Origin: Bolinopsis microptera
Taxonomy: Eukaryota; Ctenophora; Tentaculata; Lobata; Bolinopsidae
Length of the DNA stretch: 64,000 nt
Reading direction: 5' to 3'
Assembly: GCF_026151205.1 (NCBI RefSeq)
Contig: NC_087075.1
Span: forward strand, 9,167,303 to 9,231,302
The position numbers and the translations under genes were made by a program. Positions 47,373-64,000 of this stretch are shown here, one piece after another (the first letter of the stretch is position 1; each line of letters begins with the position of its first letter). The notes beneath the pieces are model-generated. The model was given only the letters and a program-made list of their open reading frames with translations, searched no databases and was not told where the DNA came from.

Positions 47373-48898
47373 GAGTTGCTGAGCTCGGCTATATTAATTA
47401 TATTATGTTAATTATAAAAGATTTTTATCGGGGATTGGGCTGGACGGTTTTAAGAGAATTGACACAGGTACTTGACATCCAAATACATTAAACTTGTAAG
47501 CCAGTGAAAGCGAGCTTCCAGACGAATCGTCTGTTGTAGACCTATAATACCGGGTAAGGTAGACCTATACCATGATAGATTATCCTAAAATGTTGATTCC
47601 TAATGTTGAAACTAGCTTATTAAGAGATTAAGGAACTGAGCATTTTTCTGGCATGGTCCCAAGATTTCTTAGCCGTGCTAATGTGGGAATTTAGCAGGGA
47701 TTGGGTCGGTTTCTTGTATTATTAGTCGCTGCCATATAGATGAGGTTCTGACAGGCTTTGGGCTGAAACATACTATGTAGTATGTACTGAAAACTAGATG
47801 CATGGCAAAGAAAATTGAGGAATTTTATTCGAGAATACAGAAGTCATATTGATATTGATATAGTACAGGCTCTACTAATAATGGCCGTAATGAAAACATG
47901 GCACAGAGAGTCACAATGGAAAGCCGTCAATTTAATGAAAGTTCAACAGTCTATAATAATAGACCTACAGCTCGATCCAGAGATCAGTATTTATTGGAAA
48001 TTTAGTCTGCTTATTATAACTGGAGAGAGCTCATCGTTTATTCAGAACTGTTTGTGTTCATCACTTCATGCTTAGACTATATTCCTGGTAAATATATCAT
48101 AATATTAACCGGGAAATTGGCCGATAAGTTAAAGGCCAATAAATATGGCCATTGCAATTTGCTGTTTAAGTAAAACAGTCCATTGAACAATAATTAGTAA
48201 CATCAATTATACTGATACGGCCTACTTACGGCTCATAAGCTCATAGTCATACAACTAGTTAAACAGTATGACCCCAAAATCCGGGCTTTAACCAATTTCA
48301 TGGATGAAAGTTACAAATTTAATAATTGAGCATCTATTTTAAGGTGAATTAACCCCGTGTCTACCCCTTGTGTCAAGTTCGTGTAATCGAACACATAATG
48401 GAAATATAAAATTATTAGTGTAACCCGTGCCTACGGCCGGGACTTCACTATCGCAGTTGAAATGCAAAATGTATAAACCCGCCTATTATATTCGAAAACC
48501 CGCATAACATTGTCGTATGAAAGTATTAACTCTCTCTACAGTCCAAACTCCAAACAGACCGCAATGAGTGCCCCTCCCTTATAAGGTTATAGTATAATAT
48601 GACAGTGAATATTACGCGGCTAACCTAATTATGATTCATGTACCAACGCTACATATGCAGCTACATATGCAGCTACATATGCAGTAATGGGAAAGAGAGC
48701 GAGGAGGGAGAAAAAGAGAGCCATTTTTTGTCACATTTGTGGTACAAAACCATTAATCAAACCACTTACCACCGACCGATTTAAAAAACCTTTATTATTT
48801 GGCTTTGTCAGAGTTTACCGAAAAAACCAGTCCCATAACTCTTACCGTTTTCTTGATTAAGCCGGAAATTACACGCTCGGAAATTACACGCGCACACA
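47373..48898. other. No supported gene
   Basis: An 86-codon plus frame (47815-48075) lacks a proper start and motif. AGCTACATATGC is repeated three times at about 48648-48683. Nothing else. Confidence 0.3.
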
Positions 48899-48907
48899 CA
48901 GACAGAA

Positions 48908-49220
<313 letters not shown>

Positions 49221-49249
49221 CACATACAGAAATTATTGTTCAAGATAAT

Positions 49250-52255: not shown

Positions 52256-52429
52256 AGATCTGGACCTGGTTTAGTAGGTGATTAAATTCTTTGTTTACAA
52301 TCTGAACCTGGTTTAGTAGCTGTTTAAATTCCTAATTTACAATCTGAACCTGGTTTAGTAGGTGATTAAATTCTTTGTTTACAATCTGAACCTGGTTTAG
52401 TAGGTATAATTTAAATTCTTTGTTTACAA
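52256..52429. repeat. 42-bp tandem repeat, four copies
   Basis: Four copies of AATCTGAACCTGGTTTAGTA followed by GGTGATTAAATTCTTTGTTTAC, with small differences. Confidence 0.95.
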
Positions 52430-52483
52430 TTTGACCGTGACTAGTCTTACTCTTAACAAGATTAAATGATTTATTTTTTGGTA

Positions 52484-56350: not shown

Positions 56351-56408
56351 ATGATACTCTTCTTCTTATCTTTCCTTCTCTTCACTGGAGCAGCTGCTAC
56401 TGACGAAG
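56351..56408 (+). CDS. Ig-like array gene, exon 1 (signal peptide)
   Basis: This is the start of a multi-exon gene running to at least 63200. The 58-nt exon encodes MILFFLSFLLFTGAAATDE, a clear signal peptide with cleavage likely near AAA-TDE, and ends in phase 1 at GAAG|GTACGT. It is phase-compatible with the exon at 57669. Proposed exons: 56351-56408, 57669-57925, 58276-58375, 58595-58791, 59747-60064, 60233-60568, 60793-61098, 61267-61608, 61838-62152, 62321-62662, 62886-63200 and beyond. The product would be secreted, or membrane-bound if a helix lies outside the window. Splicing is inferred from GT-AG sites and phase. The family is not named. Confidence 0.7.
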
Positions 56409-57668: not shown

Positions 57669-57925
57669 TGGAGAACAAAGTGTCGATCAAAGTGTCGATC
57701 AGAACAGCCGACACTGCTCACGCCGGGACACGTTCCCCCCTCTTCTTCACCTTCATCGGAACAGAGGACAGAACAGAAGAGTACAGGGCAGAGAACAGTG
57801 GAACTCACGACAAGGACCGCACGTTAGTGGAGACCTGGACCTTCTCCAATGTGACGTATACTGCAGGGGAGTTTAGATGTGTTAGAGTCAGGGTTGGTGG
57901 CGACGATGCTTTCAATTTTGAAGAG
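57669..57925 (+). CDS. Ig-like array gene, exon 2 (PLAT-like domain, first part)
   Basis: The acceptor TTTGATCAG joins in phase 1 and the donor GAAGAG|GTATTT leaves in phase 0. The peptide starts VENKVSIKVSIRTADTAHAG, has TRSPLFFTFIGTED and ends …ETWTFSNVTYTAGEFRCVRV then GDDAFNFEE. Together with exon 3 this fits a PLAT/LH2-type beta-sandwich: an AGT turn, 'FxxFxG', 'TFxxxxxxxGxxxxVRV' and 'D-F-x-x-x-I-x-V'. Such domains often bind lipids or proteins at membranes. The assignment is from pattern only and is moderate. Confidence 0.65.
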
Positions 57926-58275: not shown

Positions 58276-58375
58276 ATTGATGTGGAAGTGAATGGAACCC
58301 TGCAACCGAAAATAACGAACGAAATTGGCTGGATTGATAACCGAACGGACGTTGCTTTCTGTATTCCTCGGTTCG
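58276..58375 (+). CDS. Ig-like array gene, exon 3 (PLAT-like domain, last part)
   Basis: The acceptor TTCTCCTAG and donor TTCG|GTACGT enclose 100 nt (phase 0 in, phase 1 out). The peptide IDVEVNGTLQPKITNEIGWI then DNRTDVAFCIPRF completes the beta-sandwich. Two N-glycosylation sequons (NGT and NRT) support an extracellular location. The intron before it (57926-58275) holds nothing else. Confidence 0.65.
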
Positions 58376-58594: not shown

Positions 58595-58791
58595 ACAACG
58601 GCCTGTTTTGCCCTGAAGACCATCCCTATTCCTTCTACGGACATAGCATGTGTTGTTCGAGTGATAAAGAGGGAACAAAAACGAATTACTTGGAGATATT
58701 TGCGAAGGTACCAGGACCCTAGACATATCTTCCTTGTGTTGTAATGGAACAGAGGTGCGATGTTCAGCTGTCCCCTGTGTCAACTATCCAG
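58595..58791 (+). CDS. Ig-like array gene, exon 4 (Cys-rich module) with apparent frameshift
   Basis: The acceptor CACCTTTACAG and donor ATCCAG|GTAAAA are both good, but the exon is 197 nt where a phase 1-1 exon needs a multiple of three. The first frame gives DNGLFCPEDHPYSFYGHSMC then CSSDKEGTKT. After the AACAAAAACG run the frame offset by one base gives NELLGDICEGTRTLDISSLC then CNGTEVRCSAVPCVNYP. The combined pattern CP…HPY…CC…C…CC…C…PC is that of a compact disulphide-rich module. Neither frame is open across the whole exon. A missing base in the A-run, either a real mutation or an assembly error, explains this best. Confidence 0.6.
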
Positions 58792-59746: not shown

Positions 59747-60064
59747 GTATAGAAGCTAAGGGTAGCGAAGTGCTGACAAACACAGAAGCTACAATATCTT
59801 GTGTAATAAGTGGTTTGACTAAGCAGCTGGAGGCGGTAACATGGGAGAAACCTAGTTCGGGTGGTGTTATAACTGACGGTACTAACAGCTATCAGATTGA
59901 TATTGGAACTTACCTACCTGAGACCAACATTCAAACTACAATTCTGACCGTACCTGCTGGTGAAAACACGGCTGATGCTGTTTTCACATGTGTAATTTTT
60001 TTTGACGAGCATGCAAAAACATCAGCGTCTCCAGAAAAGACTGATGTCAACTCGAAGGTTTTCA
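59747..60064 (+). CDS. Ig-like array gene, exon A1
   Basis: A 318-nt exon, phase 1 at both ends (acceptor GATTGTTTCAG, donor TTTTCA|GTGAGT). It encodes one Ig-like domain of about 106 residues. It starts GIEAKGSEVLTNTEATISCV, has the core Trp in LEAVTWEKP and the second Cys in ADAVFTCVI. The Cys-Trp-Cys spacing and 'QTTILTVPAGENT' strand are typical of an extracellular V/I-like fold. The most divergent A copy (TNSYQIDIGTYLPETNIQ; CVIFFDEH). Confidence 0.8.
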
Positions 60065-60232
60065 GTGAGTAATCTTGATACATTTTGAGAACCACAATGT
60101 GTATAACGAAGTCTTATCAGAATTTTGCAGCAGTAATCATTCTTAATTTAGGCTATTTTAGTTACAACTACATGTAATGATACTTTAACATACCAAATGT
60201 TTTGTGAGTTTGAAAGAATCAAATTATTTTAG

Positions 60233-60568
60233 CCGTCGTTCCGGAGACTCCTAAAAAAGCCACCACCGCTGTGACTCAGACATTAACTTGTGATATTGGA
60301 GATGTGGTTACAGATGTCACTGTGTCGTGGAAGGATACTGGTGGGGTCGATATAACAACTGGTAGTGGAGGGTACACCATCACACAGGGATCAGCTGGCC
60401 CTGCTACCAAAATTCAGAAATCAACTCTGACCATTGATGTTGGCACTCTTACAAGTGTAGCTGTAGCTGCGAATCCCACGACATACACATGTGCTGCGCA
60501 ATCTGTAGAATATTCGGATTCAGCAACATCTACTTTCAAAGAAATTGTTGTCAACTTCCTTACTTTCG
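60233..60568 (+). CDS. Ig-like array gene, exon B1
   Basis: A 336-nt phase 1-1 exon encoding the second Ig-like type. It starts TVVPETPKKATTAVTQTLTC, with Trp in VTVSWKDTGG and the second Cys in TTYTCAAQSVEYSD, ending FKEIVVNFLTF. Acceptor ATTATTTTAG, donor TTTCG|GTAAGT. It is two residues shorter than B2 and B3 (AANPTTYTC versus AANGSPVTYKC). Confidence 0.8.
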
Positions 60569-60792
60569 GTAAGTTTCTTGGGACTTGGTGGGTATTTATA
60601 ACTGCCCATAAATGATGCTCTGCTGTTTTAACTTTATCTCTAAGATAACTTGTTACATCCTACTGTTAAAACAAAATTAAACTCATCATAGGACCCAGTG
60701 AATTAAGTTGAGAAAGTTCAATGATTCAGTTCCTGTACAATACTGTTGATATTTTTTATTGCGGGCTTATATTAAATGACTGATTGTTTCAG

Positions 60793-61098
60793 ATGTAGAA
60801 GCTAAGGGTAGCGAAGTGCTGACAAACACAGAAGCTACAATATCTTGTGTAGTAAGTGGTTTGAGTAAGCAGCTGGATGCGGGAACATGGAAGGAACCTT
60901 CGGGTGATCCTATAACTGACGGTACTGACAGCTATGCTATTGAGATTGGAACTTACGTTCCTGGCACCAAGATTCAAACTACAATTCTGACCGTACCTGC
61001 TGGTGAAAACACGGCTGATGCTCTTTTCACCTGTGTCATTCAATCTGACGAGCATGTAAAAACATCAGAAGAGACTGCTGTCAACTCGAATGTTTTCA
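60793..61098 (+). CDS. Ig-like array gene, exon A2
   Basis: A 306-nt phase 1-1 copy of the A domain (DVEAKGSEVLTNTEATISCV, LDAGTWKEPSGDPITD, DALFTCVIQSDEHVKTSEET). It lacks a few residues near the end relative to A1, A3 and A4. The donor is TTCA|GTGAGC. The flanking introns are near copies of those around A3 and A4. Confidence 0.8.
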
Positions 61099-61266
61099 GT
61101 GAGCAATTTTGATACATTTTGAGAACCACAATGTGTATAACGAGGTCTTATTCGAATTTTGCAGCAGTAATCTTTCTTAATTTAGGCTATTTTAATTACA
61201 ACTACATGCAATGATATTTTAACATACCAAATGTTTTGTGAGTTTGAAAGAATCAAATTATTTTAG

Positions 61267-61608
61267 CCGTCGTTCCGGAGACTCCTAAAAAAGCCACCAC
61301 CTCTGTGGCTCAGACATTGACTTGTGATATCGGGGATGTGATTACAGATGTCACTGTGTCGTGGAAGGATAATGGTGGGGTCGATATAACAACCGGTAGT
61401 GGAGGGTACACCATCGCACAGGGATCAGCTGACCCTGCTACTAAAATTCAGACATCAACTCTGACCATTGATGTTGCCAGTCTTACAAGTGTAGCTGGAG
61501 CTGCGAATGGGTCACCTGTGACATACAAATGTGCTGCGCAATCTGTAGAATATTCGGATTCAGCAACATCTACTTTCAAAGAAATTGTTGTCAACTTCCT
61601 TACTTTTG
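61267..61608 (+). CDS. Ig-like array gene, exon B2
   Basis: A 342-nt phase 1-1 exon, almost identical to B3. The domain contains VSWKDNGGVDITTGSGGY, AQGSADPATKIQTSTLTI and NGSPVTYKCAAQSVEYSD, with a possible NGS glycosylation site in the B2/B3 type. Confidence 0.85.
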
Positions 61609-61837
61609 GTAAGTTTCTTAGGACTTGGTGGGTATTTATAACTGCCCACAAATGATGCTCTGCTGTTTTAACTTTTTTCAAGATAACTTGTTACATCCTA
61701 CTGTTAAAACAAAATTAAACTCATTATAGGATCTAGTGAATTTAGTTGAGAAAGTTCAATGATTCAGTTCCTACTTCCTGTACAATACTGATGATATTTT
61801 TTATTGCGGGCTTATTTTAAATGACTGATTGTTTCAG

Positions 61838-62152
61838 GTGTAGAAGCTAAGGGTAGCGAAGTGCTGACAAACACAGAAACTACAATATCTTGTGTAGTAA
61901 GTGGTTTAAGTAAGCAGCTGGAGGCGGTTACATGGAAGGAACCTTCGGGTGATGCTATAACTGACGGTACTGACAGCTATGCTATTGAGATTGGAACTTA
62001 CGATTCTGGTTCAAACAGTCAAACTACAATTCTGACCGTACCTGCTGGTGAAAACACGGCTGATGCTCTTTTTACCTGTGTCATTCAATCTGACGAGCAT
62101 GCAAAAACATCATCGTCTCCAGAAAAGACTAATGTAAACTCGAACGTTTTCA
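61838..62152 (+). CDS. Ig-like array gene, exon A3
   Basis: A 315-nt phase 1-1 exon, nearly identical to A4. It contains LEAVTWKEPSGDAITD, IGTYDSGSNSQTTILTV and CVIQSDEHAKTSSSPEKT. Confidence 0.85.
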
Positions 62153-62320
62153 GTGAGTAATCTTGATACATTTTGAGAACCACAATGTGTATAACAAGGT
62201 CTTATTCGAATTTTGCAGCAGTAACCTTTCTTAATTTAGGCTATTTTAGTTACAACTACATGTAATGATATTTTAACATACCAAATATTTTGTGAGTTTG
62301 AAAGAATCAAATTATTTCAG

Positions 62321-62662
62321 CCGTCGTTCCGGAGACTCCTAAAAAAGCCACCACCTCTGTGGCTCAGACATTGACTTGTGATATCGGAGATGTGATTACA
62401 GATGTCACTGTGTCGTGGAAGGATAATGGTGGGGTCGATATAACAACCGGTAGTGGAGGGTACACCATCGCACAGGGATCAGCTGACCCTGCTACCAAAA
62501 TTCAGACATCATCTCTGACCATTGATGTTGCCACTCTTACAAGTGTAGCTGGAGCTGCGAATGGGTCACCTGTGACATACAAATGTGCTGCGCAATCTGT
62601 AGAATATTCGGATTCAGCAACATCTACTTTCAAAGAAATTGTTGTCAACTTCCTTACTTTTG
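62321..62662 (+). CDS. Ig-like array gene, exon B3
   Basis: A 342-nt phase 1-1 exon differing from B2 by very few residues (TSSLTIDVATLTS versus TSTLTIDVASLTS). Confidence 0.85.
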
Positions 62663-62885
62663 GTAAGTTTCTTAGGACTTGGTGGGTATTTATAACTGCC
62701 CATAAATGATGCTCTGCTTTTTTAACTTTATTCTAAGATAACTTGTTACATCCTACTGTTAAAACAAAATTAAACTCATCATAGGATTCAGTGAATTTAG
62801 TTGAGAAAGTTCAATGATTCAGTTCCTGTACAATACTGTTGATATTTTTTATTGCGGGCTTATTTTAAATGACTGATTGTTTCAG

Positions 62886-63200
62886 ATGTAGAAGCTAAGG
62901 GTAGCGAAGTGCTGACAAACACAGAAACTACAATATCTTGTGTAGTAAGTGGTTTGAGTAAGCAGCTGGAAGCGGTAACATGGAAGAAACCTTCGGGTGA
63001 TGCTATAACTGACGGTACTGACAGCTATGCTATTGAGATTGGAACTTACGATTCTGGTTCAAACAGTCAAACTACAATTCTGACCGTACCTGCTGGTGAA
63101 AACACGGCTGATGCTCTTTTCACCTGTCTCATTCAATCTGACGAGCATGCAAAAACATCAGCGTCTCCAGAAGAGACTGTTGTCAACTCAAACGTTTTCA
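62886..63200 (+). CDS. Ig-like array gene, exon A4 (last visible)
   Basis: A 315-nt phase 1-1 exon, nearly identical to A3 (VTWKKPSGDAITD, CLIQSDEHAKTSASPEET). Its donor TTTTCA|GTGAGT requires another exon. By the array pattern this would be a B exon, but the following intron is invaded by the palindromic satellite and the window ends. The gene is therefore open-ended here. Confidence 0.8.
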
Positions 63201-63324
63201 GTGAGTAATCTTGATACATTTTGAGAACCACAATCTGTATAACGAGGGCTTATTCGAATTTTGCAGCAGCAATCATTCTCAATTTAGGCCATTTTTGTTA
63301 CAATTACATGCAATGATATTTTGG

Positions 63325-63990
63325 TTCTTTTGCGATAGTCAAAACGCGACAACTAGCGCTGGATGGCGACAACTAGCGCTATCCAGCGCTAGTTGTCGCC
63401 ATCCAGCGCTAGTTGTCGCTATCCAGCGCTGGATAACGCTGGCCAGCGCAAAATATATATGTTCGATAATTGTCGCCATCCAGCGCTAGTTGTCGCCATC
63501 CAGCGCTAGTTGTCGCCATCCAGCGCTAGTTGTCGCCATCCAGCGCTAGTTGTCGCTGGCTATGCGACACTGTCGCACGCGATAGTTTGCGATGGCCAGC
63601 GCAACTGGCCATCGCAGAAAACAGTTCGATAGCTAGCGCTGGATAGCGACAACTAGCGCTGGATAGCGACAACTAGCGCTGGATAGCGACAACTAGCGCT
63701 GGCCAGCGCTGGCCATCGATATCCAGCGCAAAATTTTTACGCTTTTACTCGTCAGCTAGCGCTGGCCAGCGCTAGCCAGCGCTAACCAGCGCTAGCCAGC
63801 GCTAACCAGCGCTAGCCAGCGCTAACCAGTGCTAGCCAGCGCTAACCAGTGCTAGCCAGCGCTAATTAGCGCTAGCCAGCGCTAACCAGCGCTAACCAGC
63901 GCTAGCCAGCGCTGGCCAGCGCTAGCTGACGAGTAATTTCAGTAATATCGCAACTATATTGCGCTGGCCAGCGCTGGCTGACGAGTAATA
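63325..63990. repeat. GC-rich AGCGCT palindromic satellite
   Basis: At about 63320 the conserved intron sequence (CAATGATATTTT) breaks off and GC-rich DNA begins. It is built of AGCGCTGGATGGCGACAACT, its reverse complement (AGTTGTCGCCATCCAGCGCT), and shorter GCTAGCCAGCGCTAACCAGC units. Blocks alternate in orientation, and GCTGACGAGTAA occurs at 63924-63936 and 63978-63989 with its inverse TTACTCGTCAGC at 63746-63757. Most of the 650 bp is self-complementary. It runs to the window edge. No ORF in it is meaningful. Confidence 0.9.
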
Positions 63991-64000
63991 CTAATATCGA

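Follow-up and report, generated by a model that had tools for sequence, protein, structure and literature searches.

Two-immunoglobulin exon cassettes in tandem arrays of ctenophore genes: probable turnover within large extracellular proteins of Bolinopsis microptera

Allorecognition receptors such as Hydractinia Alr and fester decide between fusion and rejection through their polymorphism. Arthropod Dscam, a membrane protein with mutually exclusive exons, shares with the ctenophore array described here the possession of tandem immunoglobulin (Ig)-coding exons within one gene, but the ctenophore array consists of exon pairs, is homogenised, and lies in a gene whose hand-built model has no membrane segment that we found. 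In the sperm bindin of the oyster Crassostrea gigas, the number of tandem F-lectin repeats ranges from one to five, and the repeats diversify and recombine via an intron, according to excerpts of the account (PMC5712786). The ctenophore arrays are similar to the bindin of these excerpts in that tandem domain repeats differ in number; however, their repeat is an Ig pair rather than a single F-lectin domain, and their cassette is spread over no fewer than 12 loci, the largest with 28 listed A exons, rather than being confined to a few single-copy genes. In addition, alternative splicing and a gamete role have been demonstrated for the oyster protein, whereas the ctenophore arrays are known here from genome sequence alone. 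Abalone VERL is also an extracellular protein built of tandem domain repeats, which in the part of the source available are ZP-N domains (PMC13361971); the ctenophore repeats are Ig pairs, with no ZP match in the gene studied and a ZP module in a sister gene. The SpTransformer (Sp185/333) family of sea urchins changes rapidly by duplication, ectopic insertion and indels, and as described in extracts of that work (PMC8634487) what varies is whole small genes; in the ctenophore it is exon cassettes of two Ig domains, which lie within large genes. A survey of ctenophores that included B. microptera reported I-set and V-set genes in the hundreds and, in the portion available, went on with TIR2, NACHT, SRCR and CTLD (PMC11797021); we found neither tandem arrays of cassettes nor concerted evolution mentioned in that portion. 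The best-ranked papers of the open-licence literature yielded no account of tandem Ig cassettes in ctenophores, and we found no ctenophore gene described in that literature for self/non-self or gamete recognition.

The stretch of DNA analysed, hereafter the window, comprises 64,000 nucleotides (C4:9167303-9231302) of the B. microptera genome (264,652,675 bases in 232 contigs). Loci are labelled by chromosome and letter, C4w being the array of the window gene. A preliminary description had proposed seven symmetric exons of two alternating Ig-like types, A and B, and their coordinates, borders and phases were all confirmed; each exon has AG/GT borders, phase 1 at both ends and a length divisible by 3.

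59747-60064, + strand: exon A1, Ig-like, phase 1-1
60065-60232, + strand: A1-B1 intron, 168 bp
60233-60568, + strand: exon B1, Ig-like, phase 1-1
60793-61098, + strand: exon A2
61267-61608, + strand: exon B2
61838-62152, + strand: exon A3
62321-62662, + strand: exon B3
62886-63200, + strand: exon A4

The repeat period of 1045-1048 bp given for the A-intron-B-intron unit also held, with A exons starting 1046, 1045 and 1048 bp apart and all three A-B introns in the window measuring 168 bp. When identities were computed with gaps left out, A3 and A4 (95.9% in DNA, 95.2% in protein) and B2 and B3 (98.8% and 98.2%) proved as nearly identical as had been stated, while A1 (88.6-89.5% DNA and 78.2-78.8% protein identity to A2-A4) and B1 (89.2% protein identity to B2 and B3) are indeed more distinct. 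Overall DNA identity is 88.6-95.9% among the A exons of the window and 94.0-98.8% among its B exons. The introns had been called as well conserved as the exons; they are conserved (94.6-97.3% identical), but the claim was an understatement, since A exon identities start at 88.6% and the introns are thus kept better than most A exon pairs. No RNA family reached the Rfam gathering threshold anywhere in the window, so no known RNA accounts for this conservation.

The gene around the array was modelled by hand from consistent exon phases, a prediction from sequence only, and begins with four probable exons.

56351-56408, + strand: probable exon 1, signal-peptide-like (19-residue hydrophobic maximum 1.63; hand model), ending in phase 1
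57669-57925, + strand: probable exon 2, phase fitting, no Pfam match and no known domain
58276-58375, + strand: probable exon 3, phase fitting, no Pfam match and no known domain
58595-58791, + strand: probable exon 4, cysteine-rich (hand model), frame interrupted in the assembly

The interruption in exon 4 may be a real break, an assembly error or the result of a wrong border. A PLAT domain was considered for the N-terminal exons and rejected, as there was no Pfam match and a single solved-structure match at chance level (E 1.1). The array runs past position 63200, and 3' of the window lie B4, A5, a frame-broken B5 and four type-2 A-B pairs, then a 1756-bp exon holding several Ig domains, two further exons and a stop. 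The downstream part of the gene matches Pfam Ig_3 with 84.2 bits (cut-off 30; E 9.4e-24), and among the parts scanned with Pfam, to the apparent end, neither ZP nor F-lectin was found. As modelled, the gene spans about 18 kb, of which the window holds the 5' half, and includes nine A-B pairs, which belong to two unit types. Nowhere in its last 60 residues is there a hydrophobic segment (the highest 19-residue mean being 0.16), and the product is therefore probably secreted, without a membrane anchor at the apparent end; together with the signal-peptide-like first exon, this hand model agrees with the original designation as a secreted protein gene.

It is likely that the A and B exons encode an Ig fold, a conclusion that draws on several lines of support, each modest by itself. 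The seven-domain window protein scores 63 bits against Pfam C1-set (cut-off 21), whereas exons A3 and B3 taken singly score 15.8 and 15.2 bits, so that the Ig profile expected of each exon was recovered from the joined array and not from these two separately. The Cys, Trp and Cys columns are invariant in all 56 A and all 56 B exons examined, and most matches of a phmmer search with A3-B3 were to constant domains of immunoglobulins (lowest E 0.005). Structure prediction gave a pLDDT of 37.5 for one A exon alone and 69.5 for A3 modelled from the alignment of the seven window exons; nearly all the PDB matches shown for the A3 model are to Ig domains, the lowest E-value being 4.6e-3, with no match reaching 0.001.

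The intron between A4 and B4 is split by an inserted element, the left part of which is window 63323-64000, with the remainder outside the window.

63323 to L010:1822 (C4:9230625-9233124), no strand assigned: 2.5-kb repetitive element with inverted ends, 8-bp target duplication at 63315-63322

The 5' end of this element has at least 39 other near-identical copies in the genome (best 40 of 442 candidates scored), and it is hAT-like only in the length of its target duplication (8 bp). Other repeats in the window include a 42-bp minisatellite of 4.1 copies (52258-52434) and a long simple repeat with a 4-base unit (about 48860-49240), which reads TDRQ in several frames.

The cassette is widely dispersed. 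A 1054-bp unit from the window has at least 115 matches in its own genome, many with E = 0, which shows that the unit is not a chance pattern, and the cassette with its introns is 89-93% identical on other chromosomes. Searching the genome with the A3 protein (best 150 of 841 candidates, with locus counts tallied by hand) gave, among the matches listed, at least 117 A exons, which lie on six chromosomes at no fewer than 12 loci and number 2 to 28 per locus (C4w 9, C3a 3, C3b 4, C9a 10, C10a 4, C9c 11, C10c 2, C1 9, C9b 11, C9d 5, C7 21, C4b 28). The cassette is thus not private to the window gene. C4b (C4:3526370-3552335), with its 28 type-2 A exons among the matches listed, lies on the same chromosome as the window; most of it, and all of C9c and C9d, is known from search matches alone. 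The remaining listed A3 matches are one C1 fragment and 32 A-like copies of 45-53% identity clustered within about 50 kb of C5 (C5:15996715-16045298). A and B alternate in a 7.1-kb piece of this cluster, which shows that the A-B layout also occurs outside uniform arrays, and the C5 array is apparently older and less homogenised. Separately, a genome-wide I-set scan (at least 145 matches; best 150 of 593 candidates scored) placed clusters of matches at C9:9199324-9247933, C2:14244793-14330999, C7:14692333-14776048, C10:2907012-2960898 and C11:12900779-12921638, which are possible further Ig gene clusters.

For comparison among loci, 57 A-B units were extracted from nine loci, exon pairs that contained large insertions or lacked recognised borders being excluded; the unit C4w_u4, with its frame-broken B, enters no statistic. 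On a tree of 56 units, the nine locus labels require 9 changes (minimum 8), while shuffled labels required a mean of 34.9 and none of 200 shuffles was as low as 9. The units of C9b and of C1 each form a fully supported group, C7 forms a weaker one (74/78), and those of C4w fall into two groups that correspond to its two unit types. This clustering is incomplete, with C9a needing 4 changes and C3a and C10a 2 each. By tree position, then, units are most like others of their own locus, a pattern of concerted evolution to which C9a, C3a and C10a are exceptions. The PHI statistic (30 haplotypes, 164 sites) was 0.246 as against a mean of 0.312 in 300 shuffles, none of them as low, and by this measure the cassette sequences are mosaic. 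The window array had been presented as a recent expansion but is not the youngest, since C7, C9b and C4b have units with few or no differences among them: 10 of the 14 C7 units agree throughout A, intron and B, and two of three comparisons between neighbouring 950-bp segments in C4b gave no difference at all, the third, which reaches the array end, giving 123.

Such uniformity could also arise if the arrays were largely a satellite-like amplification of a coding fragment, compounded by assembly effects, with most copies having little function. The identical C4b neighbours would fit this explanation, as would the 3.8 kb 3' of that array, where no further A or B exon was recognised, one C4b A copy with three stops, and the frame-broken exons, which number 6 of the 70 B exons in the loci read and include B5 of the window gene. 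Four of these are in C7 (C7:10778057, 10779008, 10779961 and 10784721), and the break falls at the same position in all four, where the length of the intact B variants varies, as though recombination or the assembler had fused two of them. According to the excerpted assembly paper (PMC10232365), a single adult of an F3 culture supplied the genome, which was built with wtdbg, gap-closed, and polished with pilon using Illumina reads; this method may have affected array uniformity, the number of units and the six B exons with broken frames. However, 137 of the 143 exons in the loci read (73 A, 70 B) were matched in one frame, the Cys-Trp-Cys pattern is invariant in 56 of 56 units, and the window units differ by up to 11% and so are not collapsed copies; being different enough from each other, they are secure. 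Amplification of this kind is therefore very improbable as the main explanation.

The sequences surrounding the arrays point to turnover of the units. The C1, C3a, C3b and C10c genes have downstream exons in common, and in the pairs compared (C1/C10c, C3b/C3a and C3b/C10c) flanking blocks are 88-99.6% identical, while the hand-counted A exons number 2 in C10c, 3 in C3a, 4 in C3b and 9 in C1. Similarly, C7 and C9b share a 5.39-kb 3' block at 94.5% identity, but C9b has type-1 units and C7 mainly type-2. The window gene joins both types, its second part being 92.5% identical to C7 over 3.85 kb. Near-identical flanks combined with differing A exon numbers and unit types indicate quicker turnover in the arrays than in the genes that surround them, and the suggestion that array length can change is borne out by these paralogues. 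The cassettes sit in different gene backbones, one of which, in the C10c gene as spliced by hand, is of Sushi-ZP type (Sushi 21.6 bits, cut-off 20.7; ZP-N 38.7 and ZP-C 68.5 bits, both over cut-off). Downstream of this gene (L037:5871-8000), open frames resemble, by eye, a LINE-type retroelement.

Between loci, type-1 exons diverge more than their introns, with a ratio of 1.61 (1.29-2.01) over 310 pairs from 28 of the 34 type-1 units (the 6 without a second intron being left out), and divergence peaks at 0.254 around A codons 42-56. For A and B together, the 456 pairs that leave out C10a and type-2 units gave dN 0.129, dS 0.102 and intron divergence 0.066, or a dN/dS of 1.27 (0.94-1.80), in intervals that resample codons and ignore shared ancestry. 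The ratio was 1.43 (1.02-2.08) for one unit from each of six loci, hand-picked and without C3a, which is close to C3b; this is the one sampling in which the interval excludes 1. Three disjoint pairs gave 1.34 (0.93-2.04), and units within C9a, where introns differ more than exons, 1.24 (0.87-1.81). Inclusion of C10a gave 1.05 for A and 0.91 for B, and the corresponding values were 0.88 and 0.51 between type-2 units of C7 and C4w, 0.69 and 0.35 within C1, and 1.02 and 0.68 within the window's own three type-1 units. When dN/dS was computed regionally by Ig strand, the interval included 1 in every A region. The comparison of copies that had been proposed thus gave ratios near or above 1 between loci, but most intervals include 1 and some subsets fall below it. 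The pattern is one of marked amino-acid diversification within what appears to be a retained fold, and is not proof of positive selection.

These values also bear on a serious rival, namely that the cassettes build a structural or adhesive extracellular protein (of mesoglea, mucus, tentacle glue or egg coat) in which Ig pairs supply length, elasticity or stickiness, and array variation is ordinary tandem-repeat variation without recognition. The long uniform arrays at C4b and C7 are consistent with such a use, as are dN/dS ratios not clearly above 1 and the ZP module that ends the sister gene C10c, ZP modules being matrix builders elsewhere according to excerpts of one source (PMC13361971). 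Exon divergence that exceeds intron divergence between loci and peaks in one A segment is unlike a constrained mechanical repeat, and we regard a purely structural role as rather unlikely, though it is the strongest of the alternatives. Alternatively, the array could act as a Dscam-like isoform generator, in which alternative splicing selects or skips units and a single gene yields many proteins. Since all exons are in phase 1-1, any unit or single exon could be skipped in frame; however, the near-identical units at C7, C9b and C4b would yield almost no isoform diversity, making this explanation improbable.

The reading that we favour, with somewhat better than even confidence, is that the two-Ig units of these large extracellular proteins are continually replaced through unequal exchange and conversion, and that the proteins serve recognition or adhesion. 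Counting against it are the interrupted frames of exon 4 and B5 in the window gene, the incomplete clustering by locus, the C9a introns that differ more than the exons, the dN/dS intervals that mostly include 1 with some subsets below it, and an assembly method that may have made the arrays more uniform. With every exon in phase 1-1 and introns that scarcely differ, unequal crossing-over and gene conversion would add, remove or replace whole two-domain units with the frame intact, while exchange between loci would be rarer than exchange within a locus. The function would be multivalent extracellular recognition or adhesion, to which a secreted Ig array with continual replacement of its units would be suited, and array length, together with the stretch of the A domain that follows the conserved Trp, would set avidity or specificity. 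As a first guess, the role may be non-self or gamete/self recognition; for the C10c sister gene, a coat or matrix setting is plausible given its ZP backbone.

If it is true that the arrays differ among individuals, the locus would be a candidate for self/non-self or gamete recognition in ctenophores. Even without individual variation, it offers a clear and testable case of domain-array turnover in which cassettes are homogenised locus by locus, and the presence of uniform (C4b, C7) and diverged (C5) arrays in one genome means that the process could be modelled.
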